64,000 nucleotides of DNA from Clostridiaceae bacterium. GTDB taxonomy: Bacteria > Bacillota > Clostridia > Saccharofermentanales > DTU023. Below the pieces are notes generated by a model. That model was not told where the DNA came from and did not search any database. It saw nothing but the letters and a program-made list of their open reading frames with translations. This document shows positions 3,828 through 45,145 of the stretch, piece after piece. The translations under genes and the position numbers were made by a program. Each line of letters begins with the position of its first letter. The stretch's first letter is position 1. The stretch covers positions 62,001-126,000 of the forward strand of contig JAAYRL010000050.1 in NCBI GenBank assembly GCA_012518795.1, written 5' to 3'.

Positions 3828-3866
3828 TTTACATGGATTTTACAATTGTTTTATCTAGTAATAACA
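3828..3866 (+). promoter_or_regulatory. Predicted Pho box upstream of the pst operon
   Basis: Four hexamers sit at exactly 11-bp steps: TTTACA at 3828, TTTACA at 3839, TTTATC at 3850 and ATAACA at 3861. Each is separated by 5 bases. This matches the known layout of PhoP sites in Bacillus (TTAACA-like repeats with about 5-bp spacers). The same arrangement occurs before the Na+/phosphate symporter gene at 43134. The box is 283 bases before the pstS start codon, so a long leader transcript is implied. The exact -10 element is not obvious. Confidence 0.65.
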
Positions 3867-4148
3867 AACTCTCGATAAGCTAACGGTGTTATGAAGTAGA
3901 GTGATTTTCTTTATAGAGGGCTTCAAACATAATTTTAGTTGAAGTTCTAAATTAAATTCAAAAGAGAATTCAAAGAAAAACCATAAAGAAAATCAATAAG
4001 AAGGAATAGATTATTTCTTTTTATTCTTCTATAACATCAAACAGTTTGCAGTAATGAGTAAGTTATCAGATGCAAAATCAAATTGTGTGGATAAAATTAC
4101 CTGTTATCAAGCAAAACAATATTAAAAAATACTATCTGGAGGTAGAAA
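3867..4148 (+). other. Long untranslated leader before pstS
   Basis: Between the Pho box and the pstS start are about 280 AT-rich bases without a credible gene. The only clear signal is the strong ribosome site CTGGAGG just before the GTG start at 4149. I found no recognisable riboswitch. Confidence 0.4.
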
Positions 4149-5261
4149 GTGAAAAATTTAAAGAAAATCTTAGTTCTAGTACTTGCTTTAGTTATGATGA
4201 TTTCAGTTGTAACTGCATGTGGTGGTGACAAGAAAGACGAAAAAGAAGAAAAAGAAACTAAAGAAGAAGTAAAAAAAGAAGAAAAAACCGAAAAAGAAAC
4301 TGAGAAAGAAACCGAAAAGGAAACCGAGAAAGAAACCGAAAAGAAAACTGAGAAAGAAACCGAAAAAGAAACCGAAGTTGAAGTTGAAGAAACTGAAGCA
4401 GAAGCTCCTGCCGGCGAAATGACCGGACAAATTAATGTTTATACCCGTGATGCCGCATCAGGAACTCGTGAAGGTTTTGAAAGTGTTGTCGGTTTTAAAG
4501 ATCAATTAACCGATAATGCTAATGAAGTTTCCTCAAATGGTGACATGGCAACCAAAGTTGGCGAAGACGCTCAAGGTATCGGTTATGTTTCATTAACAAC
4601 AGATTTTGAAGCTAATAATTTGCAACCGGCAGATTATGAAGGCGTAGAACCTTCAGTCGAAACCGTAATTGACGGTTCTTATCTTTTAAGCCGTCCTTTC
4701 TGCTATACAACACGTGCAGAAGGCGACTATGAAAGTGATGAATTAGAACAATTAGTCAAAGCTTTCATCGTATTCTTGACTGAATCAACCGAAGGTAAAG
4801 AAGCTGTTTTAAGTGCCGGCGGAATCGTTGATGTAGAAGATAGTACACCCTGGGATGAACTCAAAGCTGATCATCCGATCGTTGATCAAGATAATTCAGG
4901 TCTCACTATTACAACCGGTGGTTCGACATCAGTTGAAAAATCCTTGAATGCTGCTTTGGAAGCCTTCCAACCTTTAGCAGGCAACTTTGATAAAGTTGTA
5001 AACCAAACAGGTTCAGGTGACGGCTGGAAACGTACATTAGGTGATGATAAAGACGGTCCTAACGCTTCCGATATCGGATTTGCTTCACGTAACTTCAAAG
5101 ATGAAGAGCCGACAGAAGATGCTATGAGTGCCGATAAATATTGTGATGATGCTATCGTAGTAGTTATTGAAAAGAACAACCCTGTGACAAACTTTACTCA
5201 AGAAAATTTATTTGATATCTTCACAGGTGCAGTTACCAATTGGGAAGATATTGCTAAATAA
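4149..5261 (+). CDS. pstS: Phosphate-binding lipoprotein PstS, circularly permuted
   Basis: The extracytoplasmic phosphate-binding protein of the Pst ABC transporter. It starts at a GTG behind CTGGAGG. A lipoprotein signal peptide ends in the lipobox VTAC (Cys24). Residues 30-88 form a highly charged linker of repeated KETE units that should hold the domain off the membrane. The ligand-binding part is in unusual order: residues 94-230 (NVYTRDAASGTREGFE... through LTESTEGKEAVLSAGGIV) match what is normally the C-terminal half of PstS. Residues 251-370 (LTITTGGSTSVEKSL, DIGFASRNFKDEE, NNPVTNFTQENLFDIFTGAVTNWEDI) match the normal N-terminal half. This is a circular permutation, not truncation, since both halves and the phosphate-contact motifs are present. 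A strong stem-loop follows the gene. Confidence 0.9.
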   Translation: MKNLKKILVLVLALVMMISVVTACGGDKKDEKEEKETKEEVKKEEKTEKETEKETEKETEKETEKKTEKETEKETEVEVEETEAEAPAGEMTGQINVYTRDAASGTREGFESVVGFKDQLTDNANEVSSNGDMATKVGEDAQGIGYVSLTTDFEANNLQPADYEGVEPSVETVIDGSYLLSRPFCYTTRAEGDYESDELEQLVKAFIVFLTESTEGKEAVLSAGGIVDVEDSTPWDELKADHPIVDQDNSGLTITTGGSTSVEKSLNAALEAFQPLAGNFDKVVNQTGSGDGWKRTLGDDKDGPNASDIGFASRNFKDEEPTEDAMSADKYCDDAIVVVIEKNNPVTNFTQENLFDIFTGAVTNWEDIAK

Positions 5262-5382: not shown

Positions 5383-6342
5383 ATGACTACTGAACAACAA
5401 AATAAAAATAAAACTTTAATAAGAGAACGGTCTGCAAAGCGCCGTTCTCTTTACAAGTCTGTCGATCGTACTATGCAATTTATTTTCCGCCTATGCGGAT
5501 TGATTGCTGCATTGATGATTATTCTGATTGTATTTTTCGTAGCTGCACGCGGTATTCAGGTTTTCTTACCGGGCTATGAAAATCCCGTTTCATTGGGAGA
5601 GTTCCTGACGGGTATGAGATGGCGTAGTGATCAAGGTGTTTACGGTGTATTATTTATCGTAATTAATACAATTATCACGGCTTTTTTTGCCGGATTAATT
5701 GCTTTCCCCTTATCTGTATTATCAGCTTTAATGATCGTAAAAATTGCTCCGAAAAGATTAAGTAATGCTTTAACCACTGTTGTTGAATTGTTAGCGGCAA
5801 TACCTTCAGTTGTTTACGGTGTTTTTGCCTCAGGTGCCATTACCGATATTGTTGAAAAAATGGCGGGATGGTTTAACTATACCACCTTCGGTGGTAACTC
5901 GATGTTGGCAGTTATTCTTTTGTTGGCAATAATGATTTATCCGACCATAACTTCGATGGCTGTAGTTGCAATTCGTGCAGTTCCTGAAAGTCATGAGCTA
6001 GGTTCATTGGCACTCGGTGCTTCCAGAACACAGACCAACTTTAAGGTTGTACTTTCATCTGCAAAATCAGGTATATTTGCCGGACTTATTCTCGGTTTAG
6101 GACGAGCATTCGGTGAAGCGACCGCTGTTTCAATGGTTGCCGGCAATGCCTTCGTCGGGCCGACTTGGAATCCGTTTGATTTAACCAGAACATTAACTAC
6201 AACAATGCTGTCGGGTTTACATGAAACAGTAGGTGTCGATTATGACGTACGTTTCTCGGTCGGTATTGTATTAATGATCATTATTTTGATTACTAATTTA
6301 GCGATCAATGCATTACGTAAAAAAATGGAGTCGGGAGATTAG
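5383..6342 (+). CDS. pstC: Phosphate ABC transporter permease PstC
   Basis: One of the two membrane subunits of the Pst phosphate importer. The sequence has an N-terminal basic stretch, a first membrane segment at about residues 34-57, and then five more hydrophobic segments. The binding-protein-dependent permease signature with the EAA-type loop is seen around ESHELGSLALGASRTQTNFKVVL. The motif LLAAIPSVVYGVFA is typical of PstC. Length (319 residues) is normal. The start is an ATG behind GAGAG. It follows pstS by 121 bases and precedes pstA by 113 bases; both gaps carry inverted repeats. Confidence 0.95.
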   Translation: MTTEQQNKNKTLIRERSAKRRSLYKSVDRTMQFIFRLCGLIAALMIILIVFFVAARGIQVFLPGYENPVSLGEFLTGMRWRSDQGVYGVLFIVINTIITAFFAGLIAFPLSVLSALMIVKIAPKRLSNALTTVVELLAAIPSVVYGVFASGAITDIVEKMAGWFNYTTFGGNSMLAVILLLAIMIYPTITSMAVVAIRAVPESHELGSLALGASRTQTNFKVVLSSAKSGIFAGLILGLGRAFGEATAVSMVAGNAFVGPTWNPFDLTRTLTTTMLSGLHETVGVDYDVRFSVGIVLMIIILITNLAINALRKKMESGD

Positions 6343-6455: not shown

Positions 6456-7745
6456 ATGAATAGAATAAGAATAATAAAAGATAGAATAGCTGAAGGCTTA
6501 ACTTGGCTGTCATCCGGCATTTCAGCTCTTGTGCTGATTGCGATATTCGTGTTTATTTTTAAACGTGGTTGGTCTACATTAAACTGGGATTTGTTAAAAA
6601 ACAATTACAATTCAGAAAATCTGATGGCAGGTTATGATCATATCGATTGGGATGAGCATGGTGCTTTCGCAGCTCCCGATACACTCCCTGAGAATGCATT
6701 CTTTTCGGAAAAATACGGCGTAGCCTTTGTAGACAGCGTTAGTGCGGCAAAAGAATCACAGATGGAAGTTGTTTTTCTTGATCCTGAATCACCTTTACAA
6801 GATGGTAAAATCACAACTGCCGGACCCAGACAAGGTGATAAACTCGGTTTGGAAGAAGGGCTATATCTGAAAAAAATATCCTACATCAATCTTGAAGGTG
6901 ACAAGAAATCTGCCGGTTTAACTGCAACTCAAGGTAAAACTTCTGAAGAATTAGTTTCAGTCTTAGATAATGATTCGCAAGAAGTGGTTGACTTCTATGC
7001 TCAAACTGAAGGCGGCGGACTTAAAGGTTCCATCATTACAACTTTGCTGTTGATTGGTCTTACTTTAATTATTGCTTTACCGATCGGTGTTTTTGCTGCA
7101 ATTTATTTACATGAATTAGCCCCGAAAAATAAACTTACAGCTTGGATCAGATCTTCAATTGAATTATTGTCAGGTGTTCCGAGTGTTATCTTCGGTCTAA
7201 TGGGAATGACAATGCTATTTCAAGTTACTCGTTTGATGGGCATAACAGGACAAAGTACGATGTTAGGTGCATTAACTTTAGCAGTAATCCTTTTGCCTGT
7301 TATAATAAGACAAACCGAGGAAGCTTTGATCAATGTTCCCGACGGATATAGAATGGCTAGTTTGTCAATGGGTGCTACTCAATTTCAAACAATATATAAA
7401 ATTATCATTCCTAATGCTATGCCGGGTATTTTAAGTGCAACACTTTTGTCGATCAGTCGAATTATCGGTGAGTCGGCAGCTTTGATCTTCACTATGGGAA
7501 CGGCGATTATGGATAATCCGGCTTGGAATACACGTGGTACTTCTCTAGCGGTACATATATGGACAGTTATGAGTGGAGAACAACCGAACTTTGAACTTGC
7601 TTCAGCAATTTCAATTGTTATTTTGATTATTGTCTTGATTTTGAATGTAAGTGTAAAATACCTTACTTATCGTATGACAAGAGATAAAGATGATCAGAAA
7701 AAGAAGAATACAAAAGTAAAAGTAAAAGCTACAACTGAAACCTGA
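6456..7745 (+). CDS. pstA: Phosphate ABC transporter permease PstA with enlarged external loop
   Basis: The second membrane subunit of the Pst importer. After a first membrane segment (about residues 18-36) there is a hydrophilic stretch of roughly 145 residues (42-188) before the transporter core starts at GGGLKGSIITTLLLIG. PstA proteins are usually 280-300 residues; the extra length here (429) lies almost wholly in this stretch, predicted to face outside. The core has LLSGVPSVIFGLMGM and the EAA-type loop VPDGYRMASLSMGATQFQTIYKIIIP. The C terminus is rich in lysine. The insertion has no family I recognise; it might contact the unusual PstS, but that is speculation. Confidence 0.93.
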   Translation: MNRIRIIKDRIAEGLTWLSSGISALVLIAIFVFIFKRGWSTLNWDLLKNNYNSENLMAGYDHIDWDEHGAFAAPDTLPENAFFSEKYGVAFVDSVSAAKESQMEVVFLDPESPLQDGKITTAGPRQGDKLGLEEGLYLKKISYINLEGDKKSAGLTATQGKTSEELVSVLDNDSQEVVDFYAQTEGGGLKGSIITTLLLIGLTLIIALPIGVFAAIYLHELAPKNKLTAWIRSSIELLSGVPSVIFGLMGMTMLFQVTRLMGITGQSTMLGALTLAVILLPVIIRQTEEALINVPDGYRMASLSMGATQFQTIYKIIIPNAMPGILSATLLSISRIIGESAALIFTMGTAIMDNPAWNTRGTSLAVHIWTVMSGEQPNFELASAISIVILIIVLILNVSVKYLTYRMTRDKDDQKKKNTKVKVKATTET

Positions 7746-7859: not shown

Positions 7860-8639
7860 ATGACACAACAAGTACAAGTAAAAACTGATTATGCGTTTGA
7901 TATAAAAGATTTGGATCTTTTCTATACGGATTTTCACGCATTAAAGAAAATTAATATGCAGATTCCTTTAAATAAAGTTACTGCTTTTATAGGTCCATCA
8001 GGCTGTGGGAAATCAACCTTGTTACGTTGTTTTAATCGTATGAATGACTTAATTGAAGGTGTGAGAATTGAGGGCGAGATTTACCATCACGATGTTGAAA
8101 TTCATAGTAAAGAAGTTGATGTTGTTCAATTAAGAACGGAAGTCGGTATGGTATTTCAACAACCGAATCCCTTTCCTATGTCAATATATGATAATGTGGC
8201 TTATGGACTGCGTTGCCAGGGTGTCAGGGATCGCAAAATATTAGATGAAGTTGTTGAAACCTCTCTAAAACAGGCTGCACTTTGGGACGAAGTGAAAGAT
8301 CATCTCAATCGCAATGCGACCAAGCTTTCCGGCGGTCAGCAACAAAGGCTATGTATTGCCAGAGCAATTTCTTTGACTCCGGAAGTTATTCTGATGGATG
8401 AACCAACCTCAGCTCTTGATCCGATTGCAACAAATAAAATTGAAGATTTAATTACCGAGTTGAAAGAATCGTATACAATAATAATTGTGACGCATTCAAT
8501 GAGTCAAGCGGCACGTGTAAGTGACATGACAGCTTTTTTCCTTTTGGGAGATATGATCGAATATGACGTTACGGATAAAGTTTTTCATAATCCTAGAGAT
8601 GAAAGAACTGAAGATTATATTTCTGGAAAGTTTGGTTAA
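7860..8639 (+). CDS. pstB: Phosphate ABC transporter ATPase PstB
   Basis: The ATP-hydrolysing subunit of the Pst importer. It shows Walker [10 protein letters not shown], the Q-loop in [23 protein letters not shown] (a PstB hallmark), the ABC signature [14 protein letters not shown], Walker [14 protein letters not shown], and the switch His in [16 protein letters not shown]. The length of 259 residues is normal. It starts at an ATG behind GAAGGAG. It is followed 64 bases later by phoU, as in most bacteria. Confidence 0.97.
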
Positions 8640-8703: not shown

Positions 8704-9405
8704 ATGTCTCAACGTGTAAATTATCAAAAAGAATTGGAGAGCTTACATCAAAGCATGATCCGTATGGGTTCCGATGTTGAAGAATCCATTCATTTAGCAG
8801 TTCTTGCTTTAACTGAAAATGATGTTGAATTAGCAACAAAAGTAATCGATCGTGATGATGTTATTGATGAACAAGAACGCAAGATAACCCAAGATTGTAT
8901 TTTGCTAATAGCCCGTCAACAACCGGTTGCCAGTGATTTGCGCAGCATTGCAGCTAATATGAAGCTGGTCACTGATTTGGAAAGAGTAGCTGATCATGCT
9001 GAAGATATTGCGGAACATGTTGTCTTTTTAAATGATAAAAACTATAGTGTTATTGTACCGCATGATGTTGTAAAATTGACGGAGCATACATCGAAGATGA
9101 TTCATGCTGTTTTAGATGCCTATGTTGAGAGTGACTTAGAAAAAGCAAAACAAGTAGTCATGATGGATATTCGTGTCAATGCTCTCTATGGCAAATTGAA
9201 AAAATATCTCGTGCGTCAAATGAAACTTGATCCGAATGTTGCACCGGCAATGGTTGAAATGTTACTGGTTTGCAAGCACTTGGAACGAATAGGTGATCAT
9301 GCGAAAAATATTGCGGAATGGATTGTTTATTTTATTGAAGGTGAATATGTAACATCTGCTGAAATCCGAAGAGAAGCCGAAGCAAGTGAAAAAGACAAGG
9401 AATAG
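8704..9405 (+). CDS. phoU: Phosphate signalling protein PhoU
   Basis: PhoU relays the transport state of PstSCAB to the PhoR kinase and limits phosphate uptake. The sequence contains two three-helix PhoU repeats, each with the metal-binding signature: LERVADHAEDIAEH in the first half and LERIGDHAKNIAEWIVY in the second. An N-terminal YQKELESLHQSMIRMGSDVE segment is typical. Length (233 residues) is slightly above the usual 215-235. The start has AGGAGAAAGG upstream. The gene ends two bases before the response-regulator start, which supports co-transcription and functional coupling. Confidence 0.96.
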   Translation: MSQRVNYQKELESLHQSMIRMGSDVEESIHLAVLALTENDVELATKVIDRDDVIDEQERKITQDCILLIARQQPVASDLRSIAANMKLVTDLERVADHAEDIAEHVVFLNDKNYSVIVPHDVVKLTEHTSKMIHAVLDAYVESDLEKAKQVVMMDIRVNALYGKLKKYLVRQMKLDPNVAPAMVEMLLVCKHLERIGDHAKNIAEWIVYFIEGEYVTSAEIRREAEASEKDKE

Positions 9406-9407
9406 CA

Positions 9408-10178
9408 GTGGGAGAGCAATCATTTGTCGTTGTTGTAGAAGACGATCAATCAATAGCCGAATTAATCCGTTACAATCTTGAAAGTGAAGGTTATCAAGTT
9501 TTGCACGTTGAATCGGGCGATGAGTTGTTCCAAAAACTAAGCCGGGAAAAACGGAATGTTGATCTCTTTCTTCTGGATGTTATGTTGCCGGGTATTGATG
9601 GATTTGAGATTTGTCAGACACTCAGGAAAAACAAGAAATATTTCTGGTCATCTTTTTTATTTTTGACTGCACGTTCAACAGAGAAAGACAAGTTGGAAGG
9701 CTTTAATGCCGGGGCAGATGATTTTTTAACGAAACCTTTCGGAATGAGAGAATTATTAGCGAGAGTGAAAATTCTGGTCAATCGGAGCAAGGAACGGGTG
9801 GCTTTGAGTGAAGGCCAGACGTTTCAATCCGATCCGGTTGCCGGCAAATCTGAGTCACCGGAAAATGAAATTATCTCTATTGGCGAAATAACTTTAGATG
9901 ATGCCAGACATCGTGTTTATGTAAATGATCTTGAAGTTTCAATGACTCATCGTGAATATGAATTGCTTAAATTTCTTATGCAAAATAGTGGTTTGGCTTT
10001 TACCAGAGATGATTTGTTAAATCATGTTTGGGGTTATGAGTATAGCGGGGAAACTAGAACAGTCGATGTTCATATTCGTCAATTACGTCGTAAAATTGAA
10101 ACTGATTCTTCTAAACCGATTTATATCCAAACGGTACGAGGTGTCGGATATCGTTTTGCTGAAATAGATGATGGTTGA
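9408..10178 (+). CDS. phoP: PhoP/PhoB-type response regulator
   Basis: An OmpR-family DNA-binding regulator. The receiver domain carries the acidic pair EDD at residues 11-13, the phospho-acceptor Asp57 in FLLDVMLPG, and the conserved Lys in LTKPFG. The C-terminal winged helix ends in TVRGVGYRF. It begins at a GTG just after the phoU stop and precedes its kinase by 38 bases. Being inside the pst operon makes phosphate response the most likely role. The direct repeats upstream of pstS (3828) and of the Na+/phosphate symporter (43134) are the natural candidate binding sites; this link is inferred. Confidence 0.9.
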   Translation: MGEQSFVVVVEDDQSIAELIRYNLESEGYQVLHVESGDELFQKLSREKRNVDLFLLDVMLPGIDGFEICQTLRKNKKYFWSSFLFLTARSTEKDKLEGFNAGADDFLTKPFGMRELLARVKILVNRSKERVALSEGQTFQSDPVAGKSESPENEIISIGEITLDDARHRVYVNDLEVSMTHREYELLKFLMQNSGLAFTRDDLLNHVWGYEYSGETRTVDVHIRQLRRKIETDSSKPIYIQTVRGVGYRFAEIDDG

Positions 10179-10216: not shown

Positions 10217-12067
10217 ATGAAAAAACGCTTACGAATATTGGGAAACATTGTAATCATTTTAGCAATAACCATAGTTTCAATTTTGAATTATCGAGAACTA
10301 AGATCAAAACTCATTCAAAGTAACGAGAATTACTTAGCCAATATTACATCTTTTTTTGATCGTGCATTAAGTCATAATATAGAGAAATCAGGCTCTAATG
10401 ATGATTTTGCAACAATTGATGAGAATGAGGAATCAAGTCAGACGGAAATTACCGACCAAAGAAGTACTGAAAATAGTAATGTGACTCAAGAATTGCTTGA
10501 GCAAACAATTGGTCTGACATTTGAAACTTTTAATGTTTTAACGTCGGATTTACGAATTACCGTAATGGATGAAACCGGTAAAGTTCTTGCAGATAGCAAT
10601 TTCCCGGGTGATAAATTGAATAATCACCGAGCCAGACCTGAAGTCTGGGGTGTGATTTCCGGTGAAGAAAGCCACTCTAATGTGCGTTTTTCGAATACAG
10701 AATCTGTTGAGCGTCTATATTTTTCAGCCAGATCCACTCATGATAATATGATTGTCAGAGCGGCGGTGTTAATGGACTTCTTATCTAATGCCGCCTCGAC
10801 AATTACACTTTCCGGCTTTATTATCGGTGTTGCAACATTAGTGCTATTCAATTTAGTTTTACACTTATTATTCAAAAAGCAAGATAAACATCAGGCTGAT
10901 TTAGAGAAAGTTTTAATAAAACTTGAGTCCGGGGATTTGTCCGCCAGGATGGAAGAAGATCGTAATACTTTTGCCAATTATCGCAAGTTTGCCGAAAATT
11001 TTAATCAGACTGTTACGAATTTCGAACATGATTTCAATGAAATGCAGGCAGGACGAGCATGGCTTGAAGAAATGGTTAATTCACTAATGGAACCCCTAGT
11101 CGTAGTGAATAATGACCTGCAAGTAGTTTTTGCCAATAAATATGCCAAAACTCTATTCAACCGGGACATTGATCCTATAGAAAATCCTTATCCTTTCGTG
11201 CTGTTAACGCATGAAGACAAATTAGACGATCTTTGTCAACAAGTTCTTAACAATGGCAAAACTGTACGTAAGGAATTTAAATTGCAGGTAACCGGACGTT
11301 ATAATGCTTTCCAAGTTATGCTTTCTCCAATTGATGTGGATCATGTAGTTGTGTTGTTTAATGACATTTCCGCTGAATACGAGGCTCGTGAACTACGGTC
11401 CAGCTTTGTAGCAAACGTAACTCATGAATTGAAAACGCCCTTAACTTCTATTAGAGGTTTTGTTGAGACTTTGCGTAATCGCAACAATACTGCACCTGAA
11501 CAGGTCAATAATTTCTTGGAAATCATCGATATTGAAGCAGCCCGACTAGAACGATTAATCAATGACATTTTGCGTCTATCGGATATTGAACGCTTAAACA
11601 ATGATTCTGAAATGGAAGATTTTGATTTGGTCGAATTATTAGATGAATGTTTAGTTCAATTAGATGATCAAGCCAGTGAAAAACAAATCAATCTGATTCC
11701 GAGTGATGATCCTACATTTTTGCCGGTTAAAGCGAATCGTGATCGAATTAAACAAGTGTTACTGAATTTATTAGAGAATGCGATTAAATATCATCGCAAG
11801 AAAGGTAATATTTGGATTGATCTGAAGCGCAAAGGAAGATTTGTCACAATCAAAGTTAAAGATGACGGTTATGGCTTTGATGAACAATCTGCCAAAAGAG
11901 TCTTTGAACGTTTTTATCGTGTGGACAAAAGTCGTTCTCGTATGCTTGGAGGTACCGGCTTAGGTTTATCAATCGTTAAGCATATTGCTTTATTGTATGA
12001 CGGTGAAGCCAGTGTTAAAAGTATACCTGATAAAGGTAGTACTTTTAAAGTTATGTTGAAAATCTAG
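10217..12067 (+). CDS. phoR: PhoR-type sensor histidine kinase
   Basis: A membrane sensor kinase paired with the regulator immediately upstream. The first membrane segment is at about residues 7-24 and the second at about 197-219; between them lies an external domain of some 170 residues. A HAMP-like region, a PAS-like domain (about 285-385) and the kinase core follow. The phospho-accepting His403 is in SSFVANVTHELKTPLTS. The N box reads LLNLLENAIKYH and the G boxes DDGYGFD and GGTGLGLSIVKH. Length (616 residues) is typical of Gram-positive PhoR. In the known system PhoU and Pst restrain this kinase when phosphate is plentiful. Confidence 0.9.
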   Translation: MKKRLRILGNIVIILAITIVSILNYRELRSKLIQSNENYLANITSFFDRALSHNIEKSGSNDDFATIDENEESSQTEITDQRSTENSNVTQELLEQTIGLTFETFNVLTSDLRITVMDETGKVLADSNFPGDKLNNHRARPEVWGVISGEESHSNVRFSNTESVERLYFSARSTHDNMIVRAAVLMDFLSNAASTITLSGFIIGVATLVLFNLVLHLLFKKQDKHQADLEKVLIKLESGDLSARMEEDRNTFANYRKFAENFNQTVTNFEHDFNEMQAGRAWLEEMVNSLMEPLVVVNNDLQVVFANKYAKTLFNRDIDPIENPYPFVLLTHEDKLDDLCQQVLNNGKTVRKEFKLQVTGRYNAFQVMLSPIDVDHVVVLFNDISAEYEARELRSSFVANVTHELKTPLTSIRGFVETLRNRNNTAPEQVNNFLEIIDIEAARLERLINDILRLSDIERLNNDSEMEDFDLVELLDECLVQLDDQASEKQINLIPSDDPTFLPVKANRDRIKQVLLNLLENAIKYHRKKGNIWIDLKRKGRFVTIKVKDDGYGFDEQSAKRVFERFYRVDKSRSRMLGGTGLGLSIVKHIALLYDGEASVKSIPDKGSTFKVMLKI

Positions 12068-25041: not shown

Positions 25042-25737
25042 ATGAGCAGCATACCATTAATATTAATAAGTGACGATGATCCTGTCGTGCATGAAGCTTT
25101 AAGTATTTATTTAAATGAAGAAAACTATCAATATTTTTCTGTTTATGATGGTGAGGCTGCATTGACGGCATTTAAAGAAAAACAACCCGATTTAATTATT
25201 TTAGATTTAATGATGCCCAAGATGTCGGGAATGGATGTATGTAAAGAAATCAGGAAATCAAGCAATGTGCCTATTATTATGTTAACCGCAAAAGGTGAAG
25301 AAATTGATCGGATTTTAGGATTGGAACTCGGTGCTGACGACTACATCGTAAAGCCTTTCAGTCCTCGAGAAGTGGTTGCCAGAATCAAAGCTGTATTACG
25401 CAGAGCTAATGATGCGGAAGCAGGCAAGTCATCCTCGATTTTACGCTTTGACGGTTTGGAAATTAATATTGACAATTATGAAGTGCTTGTAGATGGTATT
25501 CCTGTAGCATTTACACCGAAAGAAGTTGAAATTTTACACCTTTTAGCTTCAAATCCGGGTCAGGTTATGGATCGTGAACAAATACTTTCTAAAGTATGGG
25601 GTTATGATTATTTTGGGGATACCAGAACTGTAGATACCCATATTAAAAGGATCAGACAAAAAATTGACAGTGATAATCATAAATACGCATTGCTTACAGT
25701 CTATGGCGTAGGTTATAAATTCGAACCCGGTCAATAA
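25042..25737 (+). CDS. OmpR-family response regulator
   Basis: A 231-residue DNA-binding regulator. The receiver has the acidic cluster SDDD (residues 10-13), the phospho-acceptor Asp55 in LIILDLMMPKMSG and the conserved Lys in VKPFS. The winged-helix output domain ends LLTVYGVGYKFE. It starts at an ATG behind CCGGAGGAG. It is followed by its kinase 21 bases later. It is distinct from the PhoP-like regulator at 9408, and its stimulus is unknown. Its arrangement resembles WalR/PhoP-type pairs of Gram-positive bacteria, but I would not name it. Confidence 0.9.
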   Translation: MSSIPLILISDDDPVVHEALSIYLNEENYQYFSVYDGEAALTAFKEKQPDLIILDLMMPKMSGMDVCKEIRKSSNVPIIMLTAKGEEIDRILGLELGADDYIVKPFSPREVVARIKAVLRRANDAEAGKSSSILRFDGLEINIDNYEVLVDGIPVAFTPKEVEILHLLASNPGQVMDREQILSKVWGYDYFGDTRTVDTHIKRIRQKIDSDNHKYALLTVYGVGYKFEPGQ

Positions 25738-32753: not shown

Positions 32754-32829
32754 TTAATTAATTAAATAGTTAAAAAATTTTAATTAAAATGTTAAAACTA
32801 TTTAAACTTACAACCTGAAAGGACATCAA

Positions 32830-42882: not shown

Positions 42883-42957
42883 TGGTGACCCTAAGGGGAA
42901 TCGAACCCCTGATTCCGCCGTGAGAGGGCGGCGTCTTGACCGCTTGACCATAGGGCC
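42883..42957 (-). tRNA. tRNA-Glu (anticodon CTC)
   Basis: A 75-base tRNA with encoded CCA on the minus strand. The acceptor pairs GGCCCTA with TAGGGTC. The anticodon loop CTCTCAC gives CTC (codon GAG) between CCGCC and GGCGG. It ends 3 bases from the stop of the convergent MarR gene. Confidence 0.95.
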
Positions 42958-43070: not shown

Positions 43071-43109
43071 CAATCAGCTTCATCAATCAGCTTCATCAAT
43101 CAGCTTCAC
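43071..43109. repeat. Three tandem 13-bp units
   Basis: CAATCAGCTTCAT occurs three times in a row (43071, 43084 and 43097; the last ends in C). It lies 25 bases before the Pho box of the Na+/phosphate symporter. Confidence 0.95.
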
Positions 43110-43133: not shown

Positions 43134-43172
43134 TTAACATAGACTTAACCTATAATTTACACAGGATTAACA
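43134..43172 (+). promoter_or_regulatory. Predicted Pho box before the Na+/phosphate symporter
   Basis: TTAACA (43134), TTAACC (43145), TTTACA (43156) and TTAACA (43167) are spaced exactly 11 bp apart, with 5-base spacers. This is the standard PhoP site layout in Bacillus and matches the box at 3828 before pstS. TATGAA at 43184 might be the -10 element. Confidence 0.75.
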
Positions 43173-43342
43173 ACAAGCCACTGTATGAATTAAATACAGC
43201 TAAACTCTTTATAAAAACGCAAATAAATGTTAGAGTAATGTAAAATCTAAGTAAAATATGGGGGAGAACGTGTATCTTAATTATGTATTGTGATAATTTA
43301 GGTACAATATATTCTTAATGATTCATCGTCTTAATTTGATAA

Positions 43343-45145
43343 ATGACAATTTTTAATTTTTTAGAATTGCTAGGCGGTCTTTGTCTATTTTTATTCGGTA
43401 TGTCTATCTTAGGTGATAGTCTTACAACAATTTCCGGTGGAAAATTAGAAACAATTCTCGGCAAGTTATGTTCTACTAAGATTCGTGGCTTGCTCTTAGG
43501 AATGTTAGTGACAGCTGTGATCCAATCTTCATCTGCTACAACTGTCATGGTGGTTGCTCTGGTTAATTCAGGAGTAATGAAGTTGGTTCACGCGGTTCCG
43601 GTAATTATGGGAGCAAATATAGGTACAACTGTTACCGGCTGGATTTTAAGTTTAAGTGGAATTTCCGGTGATACCATCTTTATCCAAATGTTAAAACCGA
43701 GTTCTTTTACACCGGTTTTGGCTACGATAGGAATTATTCTGATTTTCACTGCTAAAACTGAAAGTAGAAAGGCTGGAGGACATGCTTTACTAGGTTTTGC
43801 CGTTTTAATGTTCGGCATGGAAGTCATGTCCGGTTCGGTTGCTCCATTACAAGGGATGCCTGAATTTAGAAATATGTTCCAAGTATTTACGAATCCTTTA
43901 GTCGGAGTACTTGTAGGTGCAGTGCTGACAGCTATAATACAATCTTCGTCTGCTTTTACCGGAATTTTGCAAGCTTTGAGTACAACCGGAGCAATTACTT
44001 TCGGTTCAGTTATTCCATTAATAATGGGCCAAAATATTGGTACCTGTATTACAGCAACTTTGGCTTCAATCGGTGCAGGTCGCAATGCAAAACGAGCCGC
44101 TTTTATTCACTTAAGTTTTAATGTAATCGGGACAATCTGCTTTATGATTGCATTCTATACGATCAATTTTTTCTGGCCATTTCCGTTTATGGGAGATGTG
44201 GTCAATGAAGTCAATATTGCTTTGGTTCATACAATCTTCAATGTATTTACCACTATCCTATTATTTCCGTTTAGCAATCAATTAGTTAGATTTTCAAAAA
44301 TTGTTCTGCCACGTAAAGAACCGAAAATTAAAAAAGACGAAATTACTAACAATTTGAGACTTTTGGATCCGAGATTTCTTGAACGTCCGGGTTTCGCGGT
44401 TGAACAAGCATATACAGTAACTTGTAGAATGATTGAAACTGCAACAGCTTCGTTAAATGCAGCGATTGAATTGATTTATGATTTTGAGTATGAAGAATAT
44501 GCTCATGTTGAAGAACTGGAAAAACAGGTAGATCAGTATGAAGATGCATTGATGGAGTATACGATGGCAATTACTGCAGGTAGCCTTAATCAAGCCGACA
44601 ATCGCAAGTTGACTATCGTCATGCATTCCCTAAATGATATTGAAAGGATCAGTGATCATGCAATCAATATTGCTGATCAGGCAAAAATTAAACATCAGGC
44701 AGAGAATTCGTTCTCTGAACAAGCGATGATTGAATTGGAAGTTTATACCAAAGCAATTGTAGATATTATGCAATTGACACGAGATGCTTTTATTAATTTA
44801 GATCTTGATCTGGCAGAAAAAATATCTCCTTTGGAAGATAGAATTGATGAGATCAATAAAGTTTTGTACGATCGTCATATTGAACGTTTGAAGAATAACA
44901 TTTGTCGCATCGAAAACGGAATGACAATTGTCGAAATTTATACATGTTTCGAGAGGATATCCGATCATTGCAATAATATCAGTATTGTTTTACGTCAATT
45001 TAGCGAACAGCAGTTCCGCTCACATGATTTCGATAACAATCTGAACAGATCAAGTCCGGAATATAAAGATCTGCTCACAACCTATAAGAATAAATACTCT
45101 TTACCTGAAATGGGAAAAGTGTTAGAGAATTCTTGTGCTAAATGA
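43343..45145 (+). CDS. Na+/phosphate symporter with PhoU-like domain
   Basis: A 600-residue NptA/PNaS-type transporter. The membrane part has two inverted QSSSA repeats (residue 61 in VIQSSSATTVMV, and about residue 200 in IIQSSSAFTGIL), the hallmark of this sodium-phosphate cotransporter family. From about residue 350 a PhoU-like helical domain follows, with LNDIERISDHAINIADQA and CFERISDHCNNISIVL. The predicted Pho box upstream supports a role in phosphate uptake during starvation alongside Pst. The ATG has no strong ribosome site. Other Na/Pi family members can also move other anions. Confidence 0.88.
   Translation: MTIFNFLELLGGLCLFLFGMSILGDSLTTISGGKLETILGKLCSTKIRGLLLGMLVTAVIQSSSATTVMVVALVNSGVMKLVHAVPVIMGANIGTTVTGWILSLSGISGDTIFIQMLKPSSFTPVLATIGIILIFTAKTESRKAGGHALLGFAVLMFGMEVMSGSVAPLQGMPEFRNMFQVFTNPLVGVLVGAVLTAIIQSSSAFTGILQALSTTGAITFGSVIPLIMGQNIGTCITATLASIGAGRNAKRAAFIHLSFNVIGTICFMIAFYTINFFWPFPFMGDVVNEVNIALVHTIFNVFTTILLFPFSNQLVRFSKIVLPRKEPKIKKDEITNNLRLLDPRFLERPGFAVEQAYTVTCRMIETATASLNAAIELIYDFEYEEYAHVEELEKQVDQYEDALMEYTMAITAGSLNQADNRKLTIVMHSLNDIERISDHAINIADQAKIKHQAENSFSEQAMIELEVYTKAIVDIMQLTRDAFINLDLDLAEKISPLEDRIDEINKVLYDRHIERLKNNICRIENGMTIVEIYTCFERISDHCNNISIVLRQFSEQQFRSHDFDNNLNRSSPEYKDLLTTYKNKYSLPEMGKVLENSCAK

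Follow-up and report, generated by a model that had tools for sequence, protein, structure and literature searches.

Mirrored repeats ahead of a sodium/phosphate symporter gene suggest a two-promoter Pho regulon in a Clostridiaceae bacterium

Background

The 64,000 nucleotides of a Clostridiaceae genome that were analysed here (the window) carry a pst locus and, 39 kb away, the gene of a Na+/phosphate symporter. In Bacillus subtilis, the hexamer of the PhoP box is TTAACA. The initial annotation of the window described four hexamers of this kind at 11-bp steps before each of the two transporters, considered chance an unlikely explanation and proposed a small regulon for the PhoP-like regulator encoded at 9408. 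The locus raises the question of whether the two importers answer to one regulator and, if so, whether they do so in the same sense.

Results and discussion

Arrays of 11-bp repeats in the window

Both arrays are present on the forward strand with exact 11-bp steps, as TTTACA, TTTACA, TTTATC and ATAACA at 3828, 3839, 3850 and 3861 before pst, and as TTAACA, TTAACC, TTTACA and TTAACA at 43134, 43145, 43156 and 43167 before the symporter. When compared with four copies of TTWACA, the pst array matches at 21 of 24 positions and the forward symporter array at 23 of 24. Markov shuffling of the window (40 replicates, both strands scored) gave a mean of 0.05 sites at 20 or more and none at 21 or more, while convolution of the window's hexamer scores gave an expectation for the 1.87-Mb genome of 0.15 sites at 21 or more and 0.0003 at 23 or more. 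Repeat spacings of 8, 9, 10, 12, 13 and 14 bp returned nothing above 19 in the window, and 11 bp returned both arrays. The claim that chance is unlikely is thus borne out by the shuffles and the genome expectation, and the forward arrays at 3828-3866 and 43134-43172 are real. A third array had been overlooked; it lies on the reverse strand before the same symporter gene, at 43228-43255, and it is the conserved one (Table 1).

Table 1. Positions of the features discussed in the text
Feature	Position	Strand	Basis or remark
Predicted Pho box of pst, TTTACA TTTACA TTTATC ATAACA at 11-bp steps	3828..3866	+	scans, conservation, profile
Candidate pst -10, GATAAG, 7 bp past fourth repeat	3874..3879	+	alignment; assignment inferred
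pstS, phosphate-binding lipoprotein, circularly permuted order	4149..5261	+	profile/structure searches
pstC	5383..6342	+	
pstA, ~180 additional N-terminal residues ahead of matched permease domain	6456..7745	+	
pstB	7860..8639	+	
phoU	8704..9405	+	
Response regulator of PhoB/PhoP (PnpR) type, proposed to bind each of the three arrays	9408..10178	+	sequence comparison
PnpS-type sensor histidine kinase	10217..12067	+	
tRNA-Glu	42883-42957	-	
Forward four-repeat array before Na+/Pi symporter, window species only	43134..43172	+	scans
-35 of conserved symporter promoter, TTTATA	43208..43213	+	sequence comparison
Extended -10, TGT TAGAGT, 17-bp spacer	43228..43236	+	sequence comparison
Conserved reverse array, TTTACT TTTACA CTAACA, predicted repressor operator	43228..43255	-	overlaps -10
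NptA-type Na+/Pi symporter, PhoU-like domain at C-terminus	43343..45145	+	

At the level of the whole genome, four copies of TTWACA with at most three mismatches were found only at these two forward arrays (control, 0). A degenerate four-repeat pattern with at most two mismatches gave three matches, namely both arrays plus an AT-rich stretch of contig C10, as against five for its control. Across the seven genomes of the genus, the former pattern gave six matches versus five for the control, so match counts alone are non-discriminating, and it is position and conservation that discriminate. The hexamer consensus alone was also rejected as a test of the regulon, three copies of TTWACA with at most two mismatches yielding 50 matches versus 55 for the control in the seven genomes. 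The only approach that discriminates Pho sites genome-wide is a profile which includes the spacers.

The pst locus and its box

The regulator at 9408 is encoded in one locus with pstS-pstC-pstA-pstB-phoU and a PnpS-type kinase, and the pst array is conserved alongside it, in agreement with the role first proposed for it. Against TIGR02154 the regulator scores 220 bits, under the cut-off of 296 bits, and is therefore PhoB-like, not PhoB, by that model. For comparison, 59 genomes were used (the window's own and relatives, those named in public records being Clostridiaceae/Eubacteriales MAGs, Mageeibacillus and Fastidiosipila), 43 of which have a PstC match. Each of the six genus genomes with a close pst locus (the window's own, G000, together with G001 and G003-G006) has the array in register, and its odd third and fourth repeats (TTTATC, ATAACA) are kept in most of them; likewise, most genus relatives retain a GATAA-like -10 at a distance of 7 bp from the fourth repeat. 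Regions upstream of pst were scanned in 31 of the 43 genomes, the others being cases of contig ends, non-adjacent pstS or sequence not retrieved. A forward three-repeat array reached a shuffle p<=0.05 in 20 of the 31 and a reverse one in a single genome. Arrays can also be recognised by eye in other genera, for example CTAACATACTT TTTACATTGGC TTAATCGAGCT ATTATC in G017 and TTTACCTAGTT TTTACAATGAT TTAATCGCGGT ATTATC in G011. Judged by these comparisons, the pst array is a genuine, ordinary and well-conserved predicted Pho box of the PnpR-pst1 kind, recurring across the order.

In the whole genome, searches detected neither Pit (PF01384) nor a second pst (by PstC); with Pit absent, the phosphate importers identified are pst and the Na+/Pi symporter. 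Pit is present in one of the seven genus genomes (0 in G000), and alkaline phosphatase (PF00245), considered as a further target, in none of the seven.

A conserved promoter and a mirrored array at the symporter

Relatives share a promoter frame upstream of the symporter gene, TTTATN-N17-TGT-TARANT, with an extended -10 of the TGTTARAGT form. A regular expression for this promoter, TTTNNN-N17/18-TGY-TANNNT, which was composed after the sequences had been inspected, is matched in 11 of 11 genomes of genera g1 and g2. From the -10 onwards, the genus relatives G001 and G003-G006 carry TGTTAR or TGTAAA every 11 bp, these being the hexamers of the forward arrays placed on the opposite strand. The window reads TGTTAG AGTAA TGTAAA ATCTA AGTAAA in forward-strand letters, its reverse array overlapping the predicted core promoter. 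The three repeats are perfect in G004 (0/18 mismatches), four repeats stand in register within the same promoter frame in G019 (genus g2), and G028, a member of genus g6, has TGTTAA ATTTG TGTAAG CTATA TGTAAG; a similar array occurs in G055, from another family. G006 (shuffle p 0.43) and G023, where they adjoin the -10 and the third is degenerate, have two good repeats each despite the presence of the regulator. The array was not seen in genera g3 and g4 though the regulator is present, and beyond genera g1, g2 and g6 it is mostly not seen. Since the conserved element lies on the opposite strand and over the -10, regulation of the symporter probably runs counter to that of pst, and the two are probably not co-activated.

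A MAFFT pairing of the window's forward array with the reverse array of relatives was discarded, the conserved block CTCTTTATNAAAA...TGTTAGAG being situated further downstream in the window. The leader of the symporter gene (43260-43342) contains GGGGGAG and, after it, a mini-ORF with a GTG/TTG start (TTG TAT... in G001, G004 and G005), and no clear ribosome site precedes the ATG.

Extent of the predicted regulon

A 33-bp sequence-only profile was built from nine sites of relatives (five pst, four reverse symporter), none of them from the window's genome, and run on the seven genus genomes. In the 1.87-Mb genome of the window, the ranking is led by the pst box with 26.2 bits (E 1.7e-5); the reverse symporter array comes second with 20.1 bits (E 0.0017), followed by a third match at E 0.41. 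The small phosphate regulon that had been proposed is supported in that the two clear sites in the genome both precede phosphate genes; it needs revision at the symporter, where the conserved site is the reverse array and not the one at 43134, which attains just 11 bits with this profile (window E 0.047). With a PWM derived from the same relatives, the top three positions of the window are +3828, -43255 and +43134, and by four-repeat PWM score the 43134 array is second-best in the window. The pst and symporter repeats have spacer bases in common too (TTTACATGGAT / TTTACATGGAC in G004). The best profile match in G002, which is without the regulator, has E 0.21.

An extra site in G004 (E 0.025; L178:1492-1519, corresponding to G004:C62:62791-62818 on the reverse strand) reads TTAACG TTTACA TTTACA and has ~20 bp in common with the pst box. 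It precedes the gene of an SBP_bac_6 lipoprotein, adjoining a glycerophosphodiester phosphodiesterase, and a role of this lipoprotein in organophosphate uptake is plausible; a full-length match to it was not found in the other genus genomes.

Two candidates on contig C24 were rejected. The near-perfect three-repeat array TTAACATTTAGTTAACATTTAGATAACA at C24:30001-30028 (L171:6502-6529) is located between the genes of an FGGY kinase and L-fucose isomerase, with no phosphate gene, and is probably not a Pho site. The match at C24:25079 adjoins a sugar-type ABC transporter binding protein, again with no phosphate gene; neither is among the matches of the held-out profile at E<=1. Within the window, a weaker reverse array at 32768-32806 (20/24, PWM 15.8) lies upstream of acetyl-CoA carboxylase genes, which are not a known Pho target.

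Loss of the reverse array together with the regulator

Among the 11 genomes of g1 and g2, the summed score of the three reverse repeats (maximum 18) is 16, 16, 18, 17, 16, 13, 15 and 14 for the eight that have an orthologue of 9408, and 10, 10 and 9 for the three without one (G002, G007 and G013). There is no overlap between the two sets, a complete separation with a chance of 1/165 when kinship is ignored; the three genomes without the regulator are drafts (87-92% completeness) and represent just two independent losses (G002; G007 with G013). In these three the reverse array is eroded, with WalR and the promoter retained. In a tree of 38 regulators, the best matches in G002, G007, G013 and G026 prove to be different paralogues, which the window's genome also possesses, and each of the four genomes retains a WalR orthologue. 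Relatives that miss the regulator and the predicted operator together can be regarded as natural knock-outs.

Over 33 genomes of the family, the reverse array reached p<=0.05 in 10 of the 20 with the regulator and in 2 of the 13 labelled as without it (Mann-Whitney 0.003, kinship ignored). These two are G033 and G022, and the latter in fact carries a regulator, cut by a contig end. The unrelated pst of G002 still has a forward three-repeat match (p 0.033) in a genome without 9408, and other PhoB-type regulators may therefore read similar boxes; the regulator adjoining that pst clusters with that of G033 in the tree.

Proposed mechanism and alternative readings

The reading that we favour, with moderate confidence, is that the regulator at 9408 activates pst and represses the symporter at low phosphate by means of mirrored repeats over the core promoter. 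This PhoB/PhoP (PnpR)-type protein, encoded in the pst operon itself, would bind the arrays. The head-to-tail array of four repeats at pst stops 7 bp short of the candidate -10, which is the layout of an activator, and at low phosphate the phosphorylated regulator would turn on pst along with its own operon. At the symporter, the predicted site is a mirror image, made up of two to four opposite-strand repeats, of which the first falls within the extended -10 and the others run through the start region; from this position over the -10 we infer that the same phosphorylated regulator would block the promoter, and at low phosphate the ABC pump would take over uptake from the sodium symporter. Opposite regulation of two phosphate importers is thereby predicted from how the same repeats are oriented and placed, which makes this a specific, testable case.

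Alternatively, the forward array at 43134 could make the symporter a co-activated member of the Pho regulon, just as pst. The array is strong (23/24, with 0.0003 expected per genome, and the second-best four-repeat PWM score), and a contrary precedent to repression exists in Staphylococcus aureus, where expression of nptA is described in PMC13170248 as PhoPR-dependent and raised in regulator mutants, so that activation of an NptA-type gene also occurs. Nevertheless, the supposed sameness of layout at the two transporters does not extend to conservation, the array being absent from all five genus relatives that bear the regulator (G001, G003, G004, G005 and G006; forward shuffle p 0.14-0.88). 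Moreover, 35 bp separate its end from the conserved -35, which is not activator spacing, and the nearest -10-like hexamer (TATGAA at 43184) is 11 bp past the array as compared to 7 bp at pst. We consider co-activation unlikely; in the window species the forward array is an extra one gained upstream, which may act as a second operator or drive a new upstream promoter. A perfect-looking Pho box can be species-specific while a less obvious one on the reverse strand is conserved, which calls for caution. Just upstream of the forward array, at 43073-43108, there is a 13-bp tandem repeat in three copies (ATCAGCTTCATCA, the last one shortened).

Another candidate reader of the reverse array is WalR (YycF), a WalR-like regulator being encoded within the window at 25042 as part of a YycF/WalR-like pair (25042/25759). 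The WalR consensus TGTWAH-N5-TGTWAH, as quoted in PMC9210968, is the reverse complement of the PhoP repeat, and TGTTAA-N5-TGTTAA of G004 fits it; the TGTTAG of the window mismatches at H. However, the array does not track WalR here, being eroded in G002, G007 and G013, which keep WalR orthologues, and the profile common to pst and the reverse array takes in spacer bases as well, which leaves WalR a distinctly unlikely reader. Somewhat less credible still is that the reverse repeats arise by coincidence from the AT-richness of the extended -10 and have no operator function. The first repeat does belong to the -10, and the good repeats number only two in G006 and in G023, but repeats 2 and 3 considered without the first score 7-12 of 12 in genomes with the regulator and 4-5 in those without, G004 matches at 18/18, and the array has E 0.0017 genome-wide in the held-out genome. 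Activation by the reverse array of a leftward transcript toward tRNA-Glu, which its orientation and the reverse-strand tRNA would suit, is highly improbable, as the array persists at the symporter in G006, with no tRNA sequence in 520 bp upstream, and in G019 (genus g2), where the upstream gene lies on the forward strand and there is no leftward gene for it to serve.

Returning to opposite regulation of pst and symporter by 9408, the wider picture would be a minimal two-promoter Pho regulon, in which a PhoB-type regulator swaps importers purely by site polarity, the mirrored site is lost with the regulator and one species is re-wiring its symporter by adding a forward array. This picture we put forward only tentatively, leaning slightly towards doubt.

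Comparison with known systems

The closest known pst arrangement is PnpRS-pst1 of Streptococcus pneumoniae, which has in common with the window a PnpS-type kinase and a PhoB-type regulator, a pst operon that has phoU as its last gene and is preceded by a Pho box, and NptA, there a third importer (PMC4913102). Unlike in S. pneumoniae, the regulator and kinase genes of the window stand at the end of the pst operon, a conserved mirrored array is found at the symporter, and no second pst was detected in the genome by the PstC search. The PhoP box of B. subtilis (PMC4415409) resembles that of the window in its direct repeats of 11-bp period, its PhoP-type regulator and its pst target, whereas the third and fourth pst repeats of the window deviate in a conserved way (TTTATC, ATAACA) and the predicted regulon consists of two promoters only.

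A precedent for repression of a secondary importer on phosphate starvation is orfA-pit of Sinorhizobium meliloti, whose PHO box is located downstream of the usual position, just ahead of the translation start (PMC3131613); the likeness is in the repression and in the box position, and the importer is Pit, of another family and in another phylum than the Na+/Pi symporter of the window. Conversely, in Streptomyces a series of 11-nt direct repeats for PhoP precedes pitH2, the gene of a secondary phosphate importer (PMC7866108); it is activated, unlike the predicted repression here, and the motif differs. In titles and abstract starts, with partial coverage of the literature, we found no publication that mentions the genus or, at a gene of the NptA type, a mirrored Pho box.

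Circular permutation of PstS

Canonical PstS proteins of relatives match residues 251-369 of the window's PstS first and residues 94-239 second, and a swap of the halves merges the two matches into one (against L092, 80 + 70 bits become a single 143 bits). The PstS of G002 is an exception, matching the window's order. In profile searches of the PDB, two swapped stretches were obtained for 4Q8R and 4GD5 and one collinear stretch for 4H1X, S. pneumoniae SP_2084, whose fold is the closest; 4H1X is also the best Foldseek match to a model of the window's PstS (E 8e-15), the mean pLDDT of this model being only 63.6. These matches indicate that the window's PstS is circularly permuted, like 4H1X. A title-level literature search returned no publication describing circular permutation in PstS. 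Permuted PstS (L138-L160) is also seen in Erysipelothrix and Merdibacter and, by 4H1X, in S. pneumoniae SP_2084. Permuted units are in some cases fused in tandem in one frame, with three copies in L149 (990 aa ORF) and two in L162 (622 aa ORF), and such fusions may represent an intermediate step when circular permutation proceeds through duplication.
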